Shown here: positions 21,995-28,605 of the stretch, piece after piece
How the letters are laid out: each line of letters starts with the position of its first letter
How positions within the stretch are numbered: the first letter of the stretch is position 1
From: Desulfovibrionaceae bacterium
GTDB lineage: Bacteria; Desulfobacterota; Desulfovibrionia; Desulfovibrionales; Desulfovibrionaceae
Length of the DNA: 57,196 nt
Assembly (NCBI GenBank): GCA_015709205.1
Contig: JACCQO010000022.1
Coordinates: 1 to 57,196, forward strand
Reading direction: 5' to 3'
Made by a program: the position numbers and the translations under genes
The notes under the pieces: generated by a model
What the model was told of the DNA's origin: nothing
What the model saw: the letters and a program-made list of their open reading frames with translations, nothing else
Database searches by the model: none

Positions 21995-22186
21995 GATTTT
22001 TCTTCTGATCTATGATGGTTCCGCGCGAACGCCCGCCCGGGAGCGGCATTGGGGGCGCCCCTGGAGGCGACAGAATGCGTCGTTTTTTCCGCCCGGGCCG
22101 ACGGCTTTCCGACGGGTCGCGAACCTTTTTTCCCGGCCCTTTACACAGGCCCACGACATTCCCGCGCGTTAGGAAGCATTGTAAAG

Positions 22187-22203
22187 TTGGCAAGGTCCTT
22201 GCT
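22187..22203 (+). promoter_or_regulatory. Sigma-54 promoter
   Basis: TTGGCAAGGTCCTTGCT matches the -24/-12 consensus TTGGCACG-N4-TTGCT almost perfectly, with GG at 22189-22190 and GC at 22201-22202 (10 bases between). It lies 37 bases before the start codon of the gene at 22240. Confidence 0.85.
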
Positions 22204-22239
22204 TCGACGGGGCGGAACCTGTTACCACGAGGTGTGCCC

Positions 22240-22770
22240 ATGAAGATACGCACCGAACAACTCGAAGCCCTGCGCCAGCTGCAGGAAAAGCCCAAGGCCA
22301 AGCCCGGGGCGGAAGACGGAGGCTTCGGCGATCTGCTCGCCCGGGAGGTGGGCCGGTCCGACGGAGCGGCCGCCGATCAGGCCGCGTCCGTCGCGCCGCC
22401 GCCGCCGGGAGCCCGCGCCTTGGGCCTGGACCGGGTGGCGCAGTCCGAGGCCGTTTCCGGAACCGAGGCAGTGGCCGAAACCGGCGCCGTGAGTCCCACT
22501 TCCGACACGGAGCAGGAGATCATGGACGGCATCGCAACCGTGCTGGACAAGTGGGAAAACTATGCCGACCAGTTGAGCTCCGCGACCGCGGAGCAGGGCC
22601 TCAAGCAGGCCTACGGGAGCCTGACGGGCATCACTGCGGACGTGCAGGGCCTCAAGGACCAGCTGGCCGGACTGGACGGCGAGCGGCCCGAGCTGACGGC
22701 CATGGTCGACGAGCTGGACGTGCTGGCGACCACGGAAACCTTCAAGTTCAACCGCGGCGACTACATCTAG
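22240..22770 (+). CDS. Sigma-54-dependent hypothetical protein (176 aa)
   Basis: No family recognised. N-terminal helix KIRTEQLEALRQLQEKPKAK with GFGDLLAREV, a low-complexity linker rich in Ala, Glu, Val and Pro (residues about 45-88), and a helical C-terminal half (IMDGIATVLDKWENYADQLSS, AYGSLTGITADVQGLKDQL) ending FKFNRGDYI. The short N-terminal helix, flexible linker and helical domain recall secreted flagellar or type III substrates or chaperones, which is inference. The start is ATG 22240 with GAGGTG before it. The sigma-54 promoter suits a flagellar class II gene. Confidence 0.7.
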   Translation: MKIRTEQLEALRQLQEKPKAKPGAEDGGFGDLLAREVGRSDGAAADQAASVAPPPPGARALGLDRVAQSEAVSGTEAVAETGAVSPTSDTEQEIMDGIATVLDKWENYADQLSSATAEQGLKQAYGSLTGITADVQGLKDQLAGLDGERPELTAMVDELDVLATTETFKFNRGDYI

Positions 22771-24293: not shown

Positions 24294-24510
24294 GGTTCCT
24301 CGCTTGCGTTGCGCCCGCTGCGGGCCCGCCAGGGCCCGGTTCGGTCCGAAAAAAGCCGGCCGCTCGGGCCCGGTTCCGCACCCTAGCAGCCCCCCGACGC
24401 GGGATAAAGCCCCCCTTGCGCCGCCCCGAAGCGGGCAGTAGAGTCGTCTCGGGGCATCGCCCCTTGCCGCGCGCGCCCAAACCCGGAAACGCCGTACCCC
24501 GGAGGCCGTG

Positions 24511-25308
24511 ATGGAACGCCTGCTCGAATTCGCCGACTCCCTGACCAACGAGGCCCTGGCCGATATGGCCGAGAGCTTCTTCGGCGAACGCCGGAGCATC
24601 GACGAGGAGGTGGACGTCTTCAAGGCCAAGGCCTCGCTGCTGGGCGAGCTGGGCCGCCGCGCCCTGAACCGCGCCTGCCTGCTGCACGCCCTGCTCCTGG
24701 ACGCAAGGGCCGCGCCGGACTTCTACCGGCTCATCGGCGTCAAGCCCACGCGGCTGTTCGCCTGGGTGGACCCGGCGCGCGGCCGCCTGTTCTTCTCCCC
24801 GCCGCGCGGGCTCACGGCCACCAGCCGCTACGTCAAGACCCTGCTCACCGCCTACCACGGGGTGCAGGACGCCTTCGACGAATACATGAACGGCCGCTAC
24901 TACACGGACCGCCGCCGCGGCCGCAAGCGGCTGACCATGCACTACAAGCTGTTGCGCGACTGGGCCGGGCACATCAACCGGCGCATCCGCAAGGTCAACG
25001 AGGGCCACGCCCCCTCGTGCGTACTCGGTTTCGCGCGGTCCATGGACGTGGCCGGGGAACGCAGAGCCGACGTGGCCGGGGCGGCCATCCCGGGCTATGC
25101 CTGCGCCCTGGACACGGACCTGCGCATGCGCCCGCTGGACACCAACGCCCTGGGCGTGCGCGAGCTGCCCGAGCTGCCCCCGCCCCAGGCGGTGGAGGAC
25201 GCGCTCCGGCACTTTGCGCGGCGGCTCTTCAAGGAAAATCGGCCGGAACTGGAGGCCATCCTTCGGCGCGTGGCCGCCCGGGCCGAGGACAACGGCGAAT
25301 CGGACTGA
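24511..25308 (+). CDS. Conserved-looking hypothetical protein (265 aa)
   Basis: No family recognised. Mostly helical and basic; segments include [78 protein letters not shown] and [21 protein letters not shown]. No signal peptide or membrane segment. ATG 24511 is used (GGAGG 5 bases upstream); a GTG immediately before it is the alternative. Single gene, divergent from cinA. Confidence 0.75.
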
Positions 25309-25563: not shown

Positions 25564-26820
25564 ATGCACCACGCCCGGCGCACAGCGCCCCAGGCCCCGA
25601 ACCCGGTTTCCGCGCCCCGTCGCGCGATCGCGCGGCTTTCCACGACAGCGCGGCTCCTCCTCGCGCTCGCGCCGGTCCTGGCGTGTCTCGCGCTCCTGTG
25701 GTCGGCCGAGCCGCGCCCGGCCCTGGCCGCGCCCGCGTCCGAACCCCTCAAGGTCATCTACGGCTTCGACCGCGAGTTCCCGCCCTACAGCTTCGAATAC
25801 GAGGGCGAGGCCACGGGCTTCGACGTGGAGGTGATCAAGGCCATCTGCGACGCGCCCAACGTGGAACTGATCTTCCGGCCCCTGGCCTGGGACAAGGTCC
25901 AGCTCCAGCTCTCGGCGGGCAATGTCTTCGTGACCTCGGGCATGGCCAAGACCAAGCAGCGCATGCTGCTCTACGACTTCTCCGCGCGGCCCGTGCTCCC
26001 GCTCAACGTCAAGCTCTTCACCAAGGGCCAGCACCGGGTGGGCAACGTGACCCTGCTGCGCGGCAAAACCGTGTCCGTGCCCAAGGGATCCTTCTACCAG
26101 CGCGTCATCGAAGACTTCGGCGGCTACAACGTCAAACTCTACCGCAACGAGCTGGACGCGCTCAAGGCCCTGGCCGCCGACGAGGTGGAGGTCTTCTGCG
26201 GCGGGGACAAGACCGCCTACTACTACATCCGGAAATTACACATGCAGGACATCAGCGCCGTGGGCACGCCCATCCGCGTAACCCAGATGTTCCTGGCCGT
26301 GAACAAGGACCACAAGGACGTGCTCGACCTGGTCAACAACGGATTGCGCCGGATCATGGAGAACGGCGAGTACGACCGCATCTACCGCAAGTGGTTCGTG
26401 CAGGAGCTGGCGCCGGGCGAACGCGAAAAGCTCATCGCCGCGGCGCGCGACATCCGGGTCAACGCGTACGCGCCGTACACGCGCCAGACCGACGGCGCGG
26501 CCGTGCTCACCCAGTCCGGCCGGATCTACACGGGCGTGACCATCGAGAACGCCCTGCCCAACCTGACCACCAGCGCCCTCAAGGTCGCGGCGATGAAGGC
26601 CGTGAGCGACGGCGAGACCGAACTGCGCGCCGCCGTGGTCGTGTCCGCGAACGGCGACATCGTGCCCCCTTCCGCGGACGAGCGCCAGGTGCTCTTCGAG
26701 TTCGGCCGGGGCGTGCTCGCCGTGACCGAGCCGGTCAAGGGCACCTTCGTGGACCACATGGTCTCGGACCTGCTGCCCTTTGCCCAGGCCGCCGCGCCCA
26801 GGGACGACGGCAACATCTAG
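25564..26820 (+). CDS. Periplasmic solute-binding protein fused to a degenerate cytidine deaminase domain (418 aa)
   Basis: A long positively charged signal peptide (hydrophobic core about 31-48, cleavage after ALAA, near 56) precedes an SBP_bac_3-type ligand-binding domain (about 60-285: IYGFDREFPPYSFEYEGEATGFDVEVIKAI, RIMENGEYDRIYRKWF). Residues 287-408 align along their length with small cytidine deaminases (AYAPYT, GRIYTGVTIENA, KAVSDGETE, LLPFA). The catalytic set is gone: Cys-Ala-Glu is Ser337-Ala-Leu339, and the PCxxC pair is Ser370 and Glu373. The domain should therefore be non-enzymatic and zinc-free. A FliA promoter upstream suggests a motility or chemotaxis link. No permease genes are nearby. 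Confidence 0.88.
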   Translation: MHHARRTAPQAPNPVSAPRRAIARLSTTARLLLALAPVLACLALLWSAEPRPALAAPASEPLKVIYGFDREFPPYSFEYEGEATGFDVEVIKAICDAPNVELIFRPLAWDKVQLQLSAGNVFVTSGMAKTKQRMLLYDFSARPVLPLNVKLFTKGQHRVGNVTLLRGKTVSVPKGSFYQRVIEDFGGYNVKLYRNELDALKALAADEVEVFCGGDKTAYYYIRKLHMQDISAVGTPIRVTQMFLAVNKDHKDVLDLVNNGLRRIMENGEYDRIYRKWFVQELAPGEREKLIAAARDIRVNAYAPYTRQTDGAAVLTQSGRIYTGVTIENALPNLTTSALKVAAMKAVSDGETELRAAVVVSANGDIVPPSADERQVLFEFGRGVLAVTEPVKGTFVDHMVSDLLPFAQAAAPRDDGNI

Positions 26821-27115: not shown

Positions 27116-27553
27116 ATGCACGACCGACGCATGCGCACCCGAGTGGAAGGGGAATATCCCGGCACGCTGACCGCGCACGGCCGCAGCATGGCCGTGATCA
27201 CCGACGACCTGAGCCTGCGCGGCGCGCGCTGCCGCGCGGAGCCCGGCACCCGCGACGCCGCCGCCCCGGCCGCCCCGGAACCCGCGGCCCACGAGCTGGC
27301 CCCTCACGAATTGGCACCAGACGACGCCTGCACCCTGACCATCCCCCTGGCCGCCTCCCTGCGCCTGGAGCTGGAGGCGCGCGTGGTGCGCACGGACGGC
27401 GCGGCCATGGCCCTGGCCTTCGAGCCCATGGAGCCGGAGACCTACGCGCACCTGCGCAACATGGTCCGGCTGCTGGCCCCGGACGCCGACGCCATCGACG
27501 ACGAGCAGGCTCCGGGCCATGGCCCGGACCCCGTCAAGGGGCCCTGCCGATGA
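27116..27553 (+). CDS. PilZ-domain protein (145 aa)
   Basis: Probable c-di-GMP receptor. The N-terminal Arg-rich motif (HDRRMRTRVEGEYPGTL) and the downstream DDLSLRGARC ([DN]-x-S-x2-G) are the two nucleotide-binding motifs. A Pro/Ala/Glu-rich insert (residues about 44-65) interrupts the barrel, and the rest (CTLTIPLAASLRLELEARVVRTDGAAMALAFEPM) completes it. ATG 27116 has a poor ribosome site. Its stop codon overlaps the glucokinase start by 4 bases (ATGA), indicating coupled translation. Confidence 0.85.
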   Translation: MHDRRMRTRVEGEYPGTLTAHGRSMAVITDDLSLRGARCRAEPGTRDAAAPAAPEPAAHELAPHELAPDDACTLTIPLAASLRLELEARVVRTDGAAMALAFEPMEPETYAHLRNMVRLLAPDADAIDDEQAPGHGPDPVKGPCR

Positions 27554-28605
27554 CGCGCGCACGCCGGAAAATCCTGGCTGCGGACATCGGCGGCACCAAC
27601 GCCCGCTTCGCCCTCTACGGGGCCGACGGGGTGGGCGCGGACGGCGCCGCGCCCGGGCCGCTGCAGTGCCTCTGGACCAGGACCTATCCCACGCGCGGCT
27701 TCGCGGGCTTCGCCCTGGTCGCGCACGCCGCCGGAGAGGACTGCGCCGCGCACCTCCGCCAAAAGGACCCGGACGCCGTGCTGCACGCGGACTGCGCCGT
27801 GGTCGCGGCGGCCGGGGCCGTGCGCGGGCGGCGCTGCACCCTGACCAACGCGCCCTGGGACGTGGACCTGGACCGCGACGCGCTGCCCGGCTCCCCGCGC
27901 CTGAGCGCGCTGATCAACGATTTCGGGGCCCAGGCCATGGCCTGCCTCGCGCCGCGCCCGGACAAGTTCGAGGTCCTGCAGCCCGACTCGGCCGGACCTG
28001 ACGGAGCCGAACCCGGCGGGGCCATCGCCGTGCTCGGCGCGGGCACGGGCTGCGGCTTCTGCCTGCTGGCCGAAATACCCCGCTCCCTCTTGCAGACGGG
28101 TGGCACTCGCCGCCTGCCCCTGCCCTCCGAAGGCGGGCACGCATCCTTTCCCCTGCTCGGCGGCGAGGAGGCGCGCTATCGGGAGTTCCTGGAGGCCCGG
28201 GGCCTGCCGCCCACGCCGGACGTGGTCCTTTCCGGCGGCGGACTGGAGCGGTTGCACGAATTCCTCACCGGCGACCGGCTTCCGGCCAAGGATGTGGGCG
28301 AACTCGTGCACAGGGGGCTGGCCGCGCGCACCGAGGCGGCCTTTGCCCGGTTCTACGGCCGCGCGGCGCGCAACTGGGCCCTGCAGGTCCTGGCCCTGGG
28401 CGGGGTGGTGGTCACGGGCGGCGTGGTCGAACACACGCCGGAACTGGTGCGCCATCCCGCGTTCCTGGAGGAATTCCGCACCAGCCGCACCTACGGCGAC
28501 CTGCTCGCGCGCCTGCCCGTGCACCTGCACCTGGACCCGGCCGCCGGGCTGGACGGCGCGGCCCTGTTCGGCCGCGACCTGCTGGCCGCCGAATCCGGGG
28601 CCTGA
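27550..28605 (+). CDS. glk: Glucokinase (351 aa)
   Basis: ATP-dependent hexokinase of the Glk family. Phosphate-binding LAADIGGTNARFALYG at the N terminus, LTNAPWDVD, LINDFGAQAMACL with the catalytic Asp, GAIAVLGAGTGCGF and the glucose-binding SEGGHASFPLL, then VLSGGGLERLHEF. Length is a little above E. coli Glk (321). Ala-rich stretches (GVGADGAAPG) account for the excess. It is coupled to the PilZ gene by ATGA overlap. Confidence 0.93.
   Translation: MTRARRKILAADIGGTNARFALYGADGVGADGAAPGPLQCLWTRTYPTRGFAGFALVAHAAGEDCAAHLRQKDPDAVLHADCAVVAAAGAVRGRRCTLTNAPWDVDLDRDALPGSPRLSALINDFGAQAMACLAPRPDKFEVLQPDSAGPDGAEPGGAIAVLGAGTGCGFCLLAEIPRSLLQTGGTRRLPLPSEGGHASFPLLGGEEARYREFLEARGLPPTPDVVLSGGGLERLHEFLTGDRLPAKDVGELVHRGLAARTEAAFARFYGRAARNWALQVLALGGVVVTGGVVEHTPELVRHPAFLEEFRTSRTYGDLLARLPVHLHLDPAAGLDGAALFGRDLLAAESGA

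Follow-up and report, generated by a model that had tools for sequence, protein, structure and literature searches.

A solute-binding protein of the Desulfovibrionaceae joined to a cytidine deaminase fold that lacks catalytic residues and is under purifying selection

The window analysed here, a 57,196-nucleotide stretch of contig JACCQO010000022.1 from a Desulfovibrionaceae bacterium (assembly GCA_015709205.1), contains a gene in which a solute-binding protein (SBP) domain of the SBP_bac_3 family is joined to a C-terminal domain with the fold of a cytidine deaminase (CDA). In all members of this fusion family that we found, the catalytic residues of the deaminase are absent; both domains are under purifying selection, and positions reported to make oligomer contacts in CDAs are retained at about the rate seen across the fold as a whole. 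Since the zinc-binding and catalytic residues have been lost yet the C-terminal tail is kept by selection, its function is most likely not a catalytic one. The explanation that we favour, with a probability of about 0.45, is that the protein is exported and that a CDA fold without zinc serves it as an assembly module, through which the SBP would multimerise or dock. No description of the fusion was found in the open-licence PMC literature that was searched.

Domain architecture of the fusion protein

The Pfam SBP_bac_3 match scores 91.2 bits (cut-off 26.4) and covers profile positions 2-131 of 132, so that the whole domain is represented, and the top PDB match of this part is a reconstructed ancestral amino-acid binding protein (E 2.4e-23). 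An earlier note on this stretch, made from the sequence alone, had recognised a CDA in the C-terminal part and proposed comparison with deaminase models and structures. The comparison supports this assignment: residues 286-418 match solved CDAs with a best E of 5e-18, as expected of the tetrameric CDA fold, and residues 286-360 pass the Pfam cut-off of 25 for dCMP_cyt_deam_2 (36.9 bits, E 4.9e-9); dCMP_cyt_deam_1 scores 15 bits, under its cut-off of 25. The NCBIfam cytidine deaminase equivalog PRK05578 is matched barely above its cut-off (75.3 against 74 bits) and TIGR01354 scores 62.9, under its cut-off of 113.65. Because the tetrameric model PRK05578 outscores the dimeric model PRK09027 (31.2 bits), descent from the dead C-terminal half of an E. 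coli-type dimeric CDA is less likely. Since the fusion passes a curated CDA cut-off despite missing the residues of the enzyme, annotation may misname it as one.

By-eye reading of the N-terminus revealed a putative export signal, with a hydrophobic stretch followed by an ALA-A-type motif that we take to be a cleavage site, and the N-termini of most relatives, read from the printed rows in the same way, are similar. A structure model was also obtained, for which the alignment of the fold part included true CDAs; its SBP part is poor and of low confidence (block means of 22-55), with just two sequences aligned there.

Loss of the zinc ligands and the catalytic glutamate

We compared 41 distinct fused domains, 40 from Desulfovibrionaceae and one (locus L080, genome G164) from a different family, with 17 standalone controls, namely 16 CDA-only rows among the phylum matches listed and the window genome's own CDA. 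The earlier note had read the zinc-binding and proton-shuttle residues of the window protein as replaced by Ser337, Leu339, Ser370 and Glu373, and the alignment bears this out. None of the 41 fused domains has any of the three zinc-binding cysteines or the proton-shuttle glutamate expected of a tetrameric CDA, whereas all four are present in 17/17 controls. In B. subtilis numbering, the Cys53 position is occupied by S (28), T (8), G (4) or Q (1), the Glu55 position by L (25), I (8), V (3), T (2), M, P or F (1 each), the Cys86 position by S (15), T (11), A (8), G (3), D (2), E or N (1 each) and the Cys89 position by D (26), E (13) or V (2). According to the same note, homologues keeping the C-A-E and P-C-x2-C motifs would have pointed to a local sequence error; this is ruled out because the motifs are absent from 41/41 fused domains. 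Further standalone CDAs from genomes of the same family (16 of 18 non-fusion rows fetched, alignment by eye) have both motifs in 15 of 16 cases, including the divergent L129. The sole exception, L130 in genome G116, is a standalone CDA gene with an apparent frameshift after its C-A-E motif.

The lost ligands lie at two helix starts, which carry Ser or Thr in 36/41 and 26/41 fused domains, respectively, with Asp or Glu three residues into the second in 39/41. It is as if helix N-caps had replaced zinc at both helix starts, which would suggest a testable route for the loss of a structural zinc site, with N-caps in place of thiolates.

Selection on both domains

Across 39 members (741 pairs), the SBP has a mean pairwise identity of 47.1% and the CDA part one of 42.1%. 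The ratio of non-synonymous to synonymous substitution rates (dN/dS) is 0.011-0.221 for the CDA part in 13 finite values from 14 pairs and 0.027-0.166 for the SBP in 11 finite values from 14 pairs; these codon results are rough, since dS was saturated, giving no ratio, in one CDA pair and three SBP pairs, and synonymous sites approach saturation in several pairs. The dead CDA domain is under purifying selection, as is its SBP partner, and the conservation and dN/dS values disfavour decay of this domain.

Retained and lost contact positions

Substrate and quaternary contact positions, taken from the available part of PMC6686228, were mapped onto the window by motif spacing, and the counts that follow hold for this mapping. 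The base-stacking residues Phe308 and Phe408 are each found in 1/41 fused domains, compared with 13/18 and 18/18 controls; Phe is gone from both positions in 40/41 fused domains, the window having Gln at each and five members having Tyr at 408. The ribose-contact residue Asn326 is present in 25/41 fused domains and 18/18 controls (Thr326 in the window), and Ala338 in 39/41 and 18/18. Of the five nucleoside contacts of a tetrameric CDA (Phe, Asn, Glu, Ala, Phe), the window protein therefore has just Glu328 and Ala338. The fusion outside the Desulfovibrionaceae, L080, keeps all five contacts and lacks the four catalytic residues.

The quaternary contacts are kept in 35 (Tyr305), 23 (Ser306), 21 (Arg374), 31 (Gln375), 37 (Glu379) and 32 (Leu404) of the 41 fused domains, a mean of 29.8. 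The other 27 columns conserved in the controls have a mean of 29.4 and the four catalytic columns have 0. Oligomer contacts thus persist at about the fold-wide rate and not above it, whereas the residues for catalysis and base stacking have disappeared.

Distribution and relatives

The fusion occurs in 40 of 150 Desulfovibrionaceae genomes, 39 with a full-length gene, including that of the window, and one (G014) with the gene split over two contig ends. At order level 19 of 199 genomes have a match past E 1e-40, every one of them in the Desulfovibrionaceae, and at phylum level, among the matches listed, a full-length match is present in 2 of 395 genomes, those of the window and G164. The family of G164 has a full-length fusion in 1 of 20 genomes. 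A scan of genome contigs returned one locus (L006), with the same protein in G001, a genome of the same family (L017); distribution beyond the phylum is poorly covered because this single scan used exact peptide patterns. Plasmids contained no match to the fusion at E 1e-20, and the viral collection contained no relative of the fusion, of its SBP or of the window genome's own standalone CDA; 13 CDA-like loci were present in that collection, of which eight were used.

In a tree whose near-root forks are weak, a branch with support of 99/96 separates the control CDAs and that of B. subtilis from the rest, and L080 is placed nearest to the standalone CDAs (96/92). It is possible that L080 is an evolutionary intermediate and, because it retains all five substrate contacts, that the ancestor of the fusion bound nucleosides.

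Gene neighbourhood and standalone deaminases

We examined 30 neighbourhoods from the 41 fused loci, 29 fetched and that of the window, which is included in each count. CinA is near the fusion in 19 and glucokinase in 15, downstream on the same strand in 12 and on the other strand in 3; in some neighbourhoods the open frame for glucokinase starts directly after the stop codon of the fusion. Downstream genes otherwise vary by locus (HisA, IPP transferase, NrfD, redoxin, a methyl-accepting chemotaxis protein as chemoreceptor at one locus, and others). At L039-L042 and L044 the genes further downstream resemble an outer-membrane channel and an ATP-binding cassette (ABC) exporter by eye, as read for L040 only. 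No ABC importer (permease or ATPase) or sensor kinase was present among the annotated neighbours in the window and 18 nearby downstream open reading frames of 13 other loci (5 of them without a family match), the remaining neighbours not being annotated. Gene order thus points to no importer or kinase partner among the annotated neighbours, what recurs being CinA, glucokinase, PilZ and a 266-residue protein, and from these data we class the fusion protein as an orphan SBP.

The window genome also encodes a standalone CDA with intact motifs (L081, on the 7.7 kb contig C99). It is the only one of 40 same-family genomes with the fusion to do so. Standalone CDAs occur in 14 of 110 same-family genomes without a detected fusion, a count that excludes G116 (frameshift-like), G052 (divergent, both motifs kept) and G073 (20.7 bits). 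As a rule, the fused domain is unlikely to assemble with an active CDA of the same cell, since 39 of 40 fusion genomes show no standalone CDA.

Table 1. Features of the fusion gene and its neighbours in the window
Feature	Position	Strand	Remarks
SBP_bac_3–pseudo-cytidine-deaminase fusion gene	25564..26820	+	Open reading frame and translation, 418 residues, ATG start
Putative N-terminal export signal, residues 1-56	25564..25731	+	Hydrophobic stretch, then ALA-A-type cleavage site, by eye
SBP_bac_3 domain, residues 65-279	25756..26400	+	Pfam, E 5.9e-26
Pseudo-CDA domain, residues 287-407	26422..26784	+	NCBIfam PRK05578
Glu328, ribose-contact Glu	26545..26547	+	Kept in 39/41 fused domains and 18/18 controls, as mapped
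Ser337-Ala338-Leu339, replacing zinc/catalytic C-A-E	26572..26580	+	Ser337 just before predicted helix 338-348
Ser370-x-x-Glu373, replacing zinc-binding C-x-x-C	26671..26682	+	Ser370 just before predicted helix 371-380
Small protein	22012-22770	+	No Pfam match at E 0.01; conserved in 8/30 neighbourhoods
266-residue protein	24508-25308	+	No Pfam match at E 0.01; just upstream of fusion; 7/30 neighbourhoods
PilZ-domain gene	27116-27553	+	Between fusion and glucokinase; 6/30 neighbourhoods
Glucokinase (PF02685)	27550-28605	+	Downstream of fusion; near it in 14/29 other neighbourhoods

Proposed role of the deaminase fold

Residues of the SBP domain provide some indication of its ligand. Arg133, present in 39 of the 40 rows with a letter, aligns with an Arg of solved amino-acid binding proteins that we take to be the alpha-carboxylate position, and position 215, which is D or E in 25/40, aligns with an Asp that presumably contacts the alpha-amino group. 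These alignments make a carboxylate ligand plausible; that all members bind a standard amino acid is not certain.

We propose that the protein would be exported as an orphan periplasmic SBP, as the by-eye reading of its N-terminus suggests, and that its flytrap would bind a small carboxylate- or amino-acid-like ligand. The C-terminal domain would be a former tetrameric-type CDA that has lost catalysis and, presumably, zinc, the metal that pinned two helix starts having given way to N-caps, with Ser or Thr at both and Asp or Glu three residues into the second. The CDA fold would then be retained for assembly or docking, most likely self-associating still in the manner of CDAs, and the resulting multivalent binding protein would present its ligand state to a membrane partner. 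Several points weigh against our proposal. The interface positions are kept no better than ordinary fold positions (29.8 versus 29.4 of 41), with Arg374 in only 21/41 and Ser306 in only 23/41, and Glu328 in 39/41 could mean that a polar pocket survives. Position 370 is Ala, which provides no helix cap, in 8/41, and S, T, D or N is missing there in 12/41; the ligand class is uncertain because position 215 is acidic in only 25/40; no adjacent partner gene is conserved in the loci examined; and the model of the CDA fold drew on true CDAs in its alignment and is of low confidence in its SBP part.

Alternatively, the domain might not self-assemble as CDAs do but offer a docking surface for a specific protein of the membrane or periplasm, the G-R-G-x-L motif (residues 381-385) being part of that surface. 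This motif is common in the family, with Arg382 in 34/41 fused domains and 0/18 controls (Pro 14, Lys 3, Ser 1) and Gly383 in 35/41 (for position 383 the control letters cover the three commonest, and control L105 does have Gly), but a partner gene is not conserved nearby, even CinA, glucokinase and PilZ reaching only 19, 15 and 6 of 30 neighbourhoods, and we regard docking of this kind as doubtful. It is unlikely, to a somewhat greater degree, that the protein is a two-ligand receptor in which the dead pocket binds a nucleoside or pyrimidine without turnover and integrates it with the SBP ligand. The persistence of Glu328 (39/41) and Asn326 (25/41), Tyr408 in five members, and L080, which has Phe308, Asn326, Glu328, Ala338 and Phe408 yet lacks catalysis, are in keeping with such a receptor, and active CDAs do not always have Phe308 either (13/18 controls). 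However, both stacking Phe residues are lost in 40/41, including the window, which also has Thr326, and the L, I or V that replaces Glu339 in 36/41 may fill the base pocket. The earlier note was thus right that an SBP is fused to a CDA fold without catalytic residues, a loss that is conserved in the family, whereas the nucleoside or pyrimidine sensor or two-ligand co-receptor that it suggested is not established, the window having Gln308, Gln408 and Thr326; we keep a nucleoside sensor as a possible reading without favouring it. We are slightly more sceptical of a new kind of periplasmic receptor whose dead nucleoside-deaminase pocket is a second ligand site, an L080-like ancestor having kept all the nucleoside contacts but lost catalysis and the Desulfovibrionaceae having retuned the pocket to a different ligand around the retained Glu328.

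That the CDA domain is an inert, decaying relic accords with the absence of catalytic residues from 41/41, but is largely contradicted by the mean identity of 42.1% (741 pairs) and by dN/dS at or below 0.221 in the 13 pairs, out of 14, that gave a ratio, and is very improbable. Equally hard to credit, if not more so, is catalysis persisting through another metal or chemistry at the Ser/Thr, Ser/Thr and Asp/Glu positions: many members do have three oxygen-bearing side chains in place of three thiolates, but the proton-shuttle Glu is L, I or V in 36/41 and position 370 is Ala in 8/41.

Comparison with known systems

The fusion shares its fold with tetrameric CDAs (TIGR01354/PRK05578; B. subtilis Cdd, 1jtk) but differs from them in being joined to an SBP with a probable signal peptide and in having lost the zinc ligands, the catalytic Glu and the base-stacking Phe residues. 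If export is confirmed, this would be a clear, lineage-wide example of a metabolic enzyme from inside the cell that has been relocated beyond the cytoplasm, has lost both metal site and catalysis and has been retained for another purpose. With the amino-acid binding proteins of SBP_bac_3 (PF00497) it has in common the whole flytrap and an Arg at the presumed alpha-carboxylate position, whereas it adds a C-terminal domain, has no ABC importer among its annotated neighbours and is acidic at position 215 in only 25/40.

Some SBPs activate sensor kinases, as described in the available part of PMC11113362, which provides a precedent for signalling by binding proteins; unlike these, the fusion has no adjacent kinase among annotated neighbours, and one locus has a chemoreceptor downstream. 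Deaminase folds kept without catalysis are also described, in the available parts of the sources, for the dimeric E. coli-type CDA, which has a 'broken active site' domain (PMC6686228), and for the N-terminal domain of human CDADC1, which is inactive, still holds zinc and has a stated architectural role (PMC12088426). Both of those proteins also carry an active deaminase domain, whereas the fusion has none attached, and the precedents for dead deaminase domains therefore lie inside proteins with active domains.
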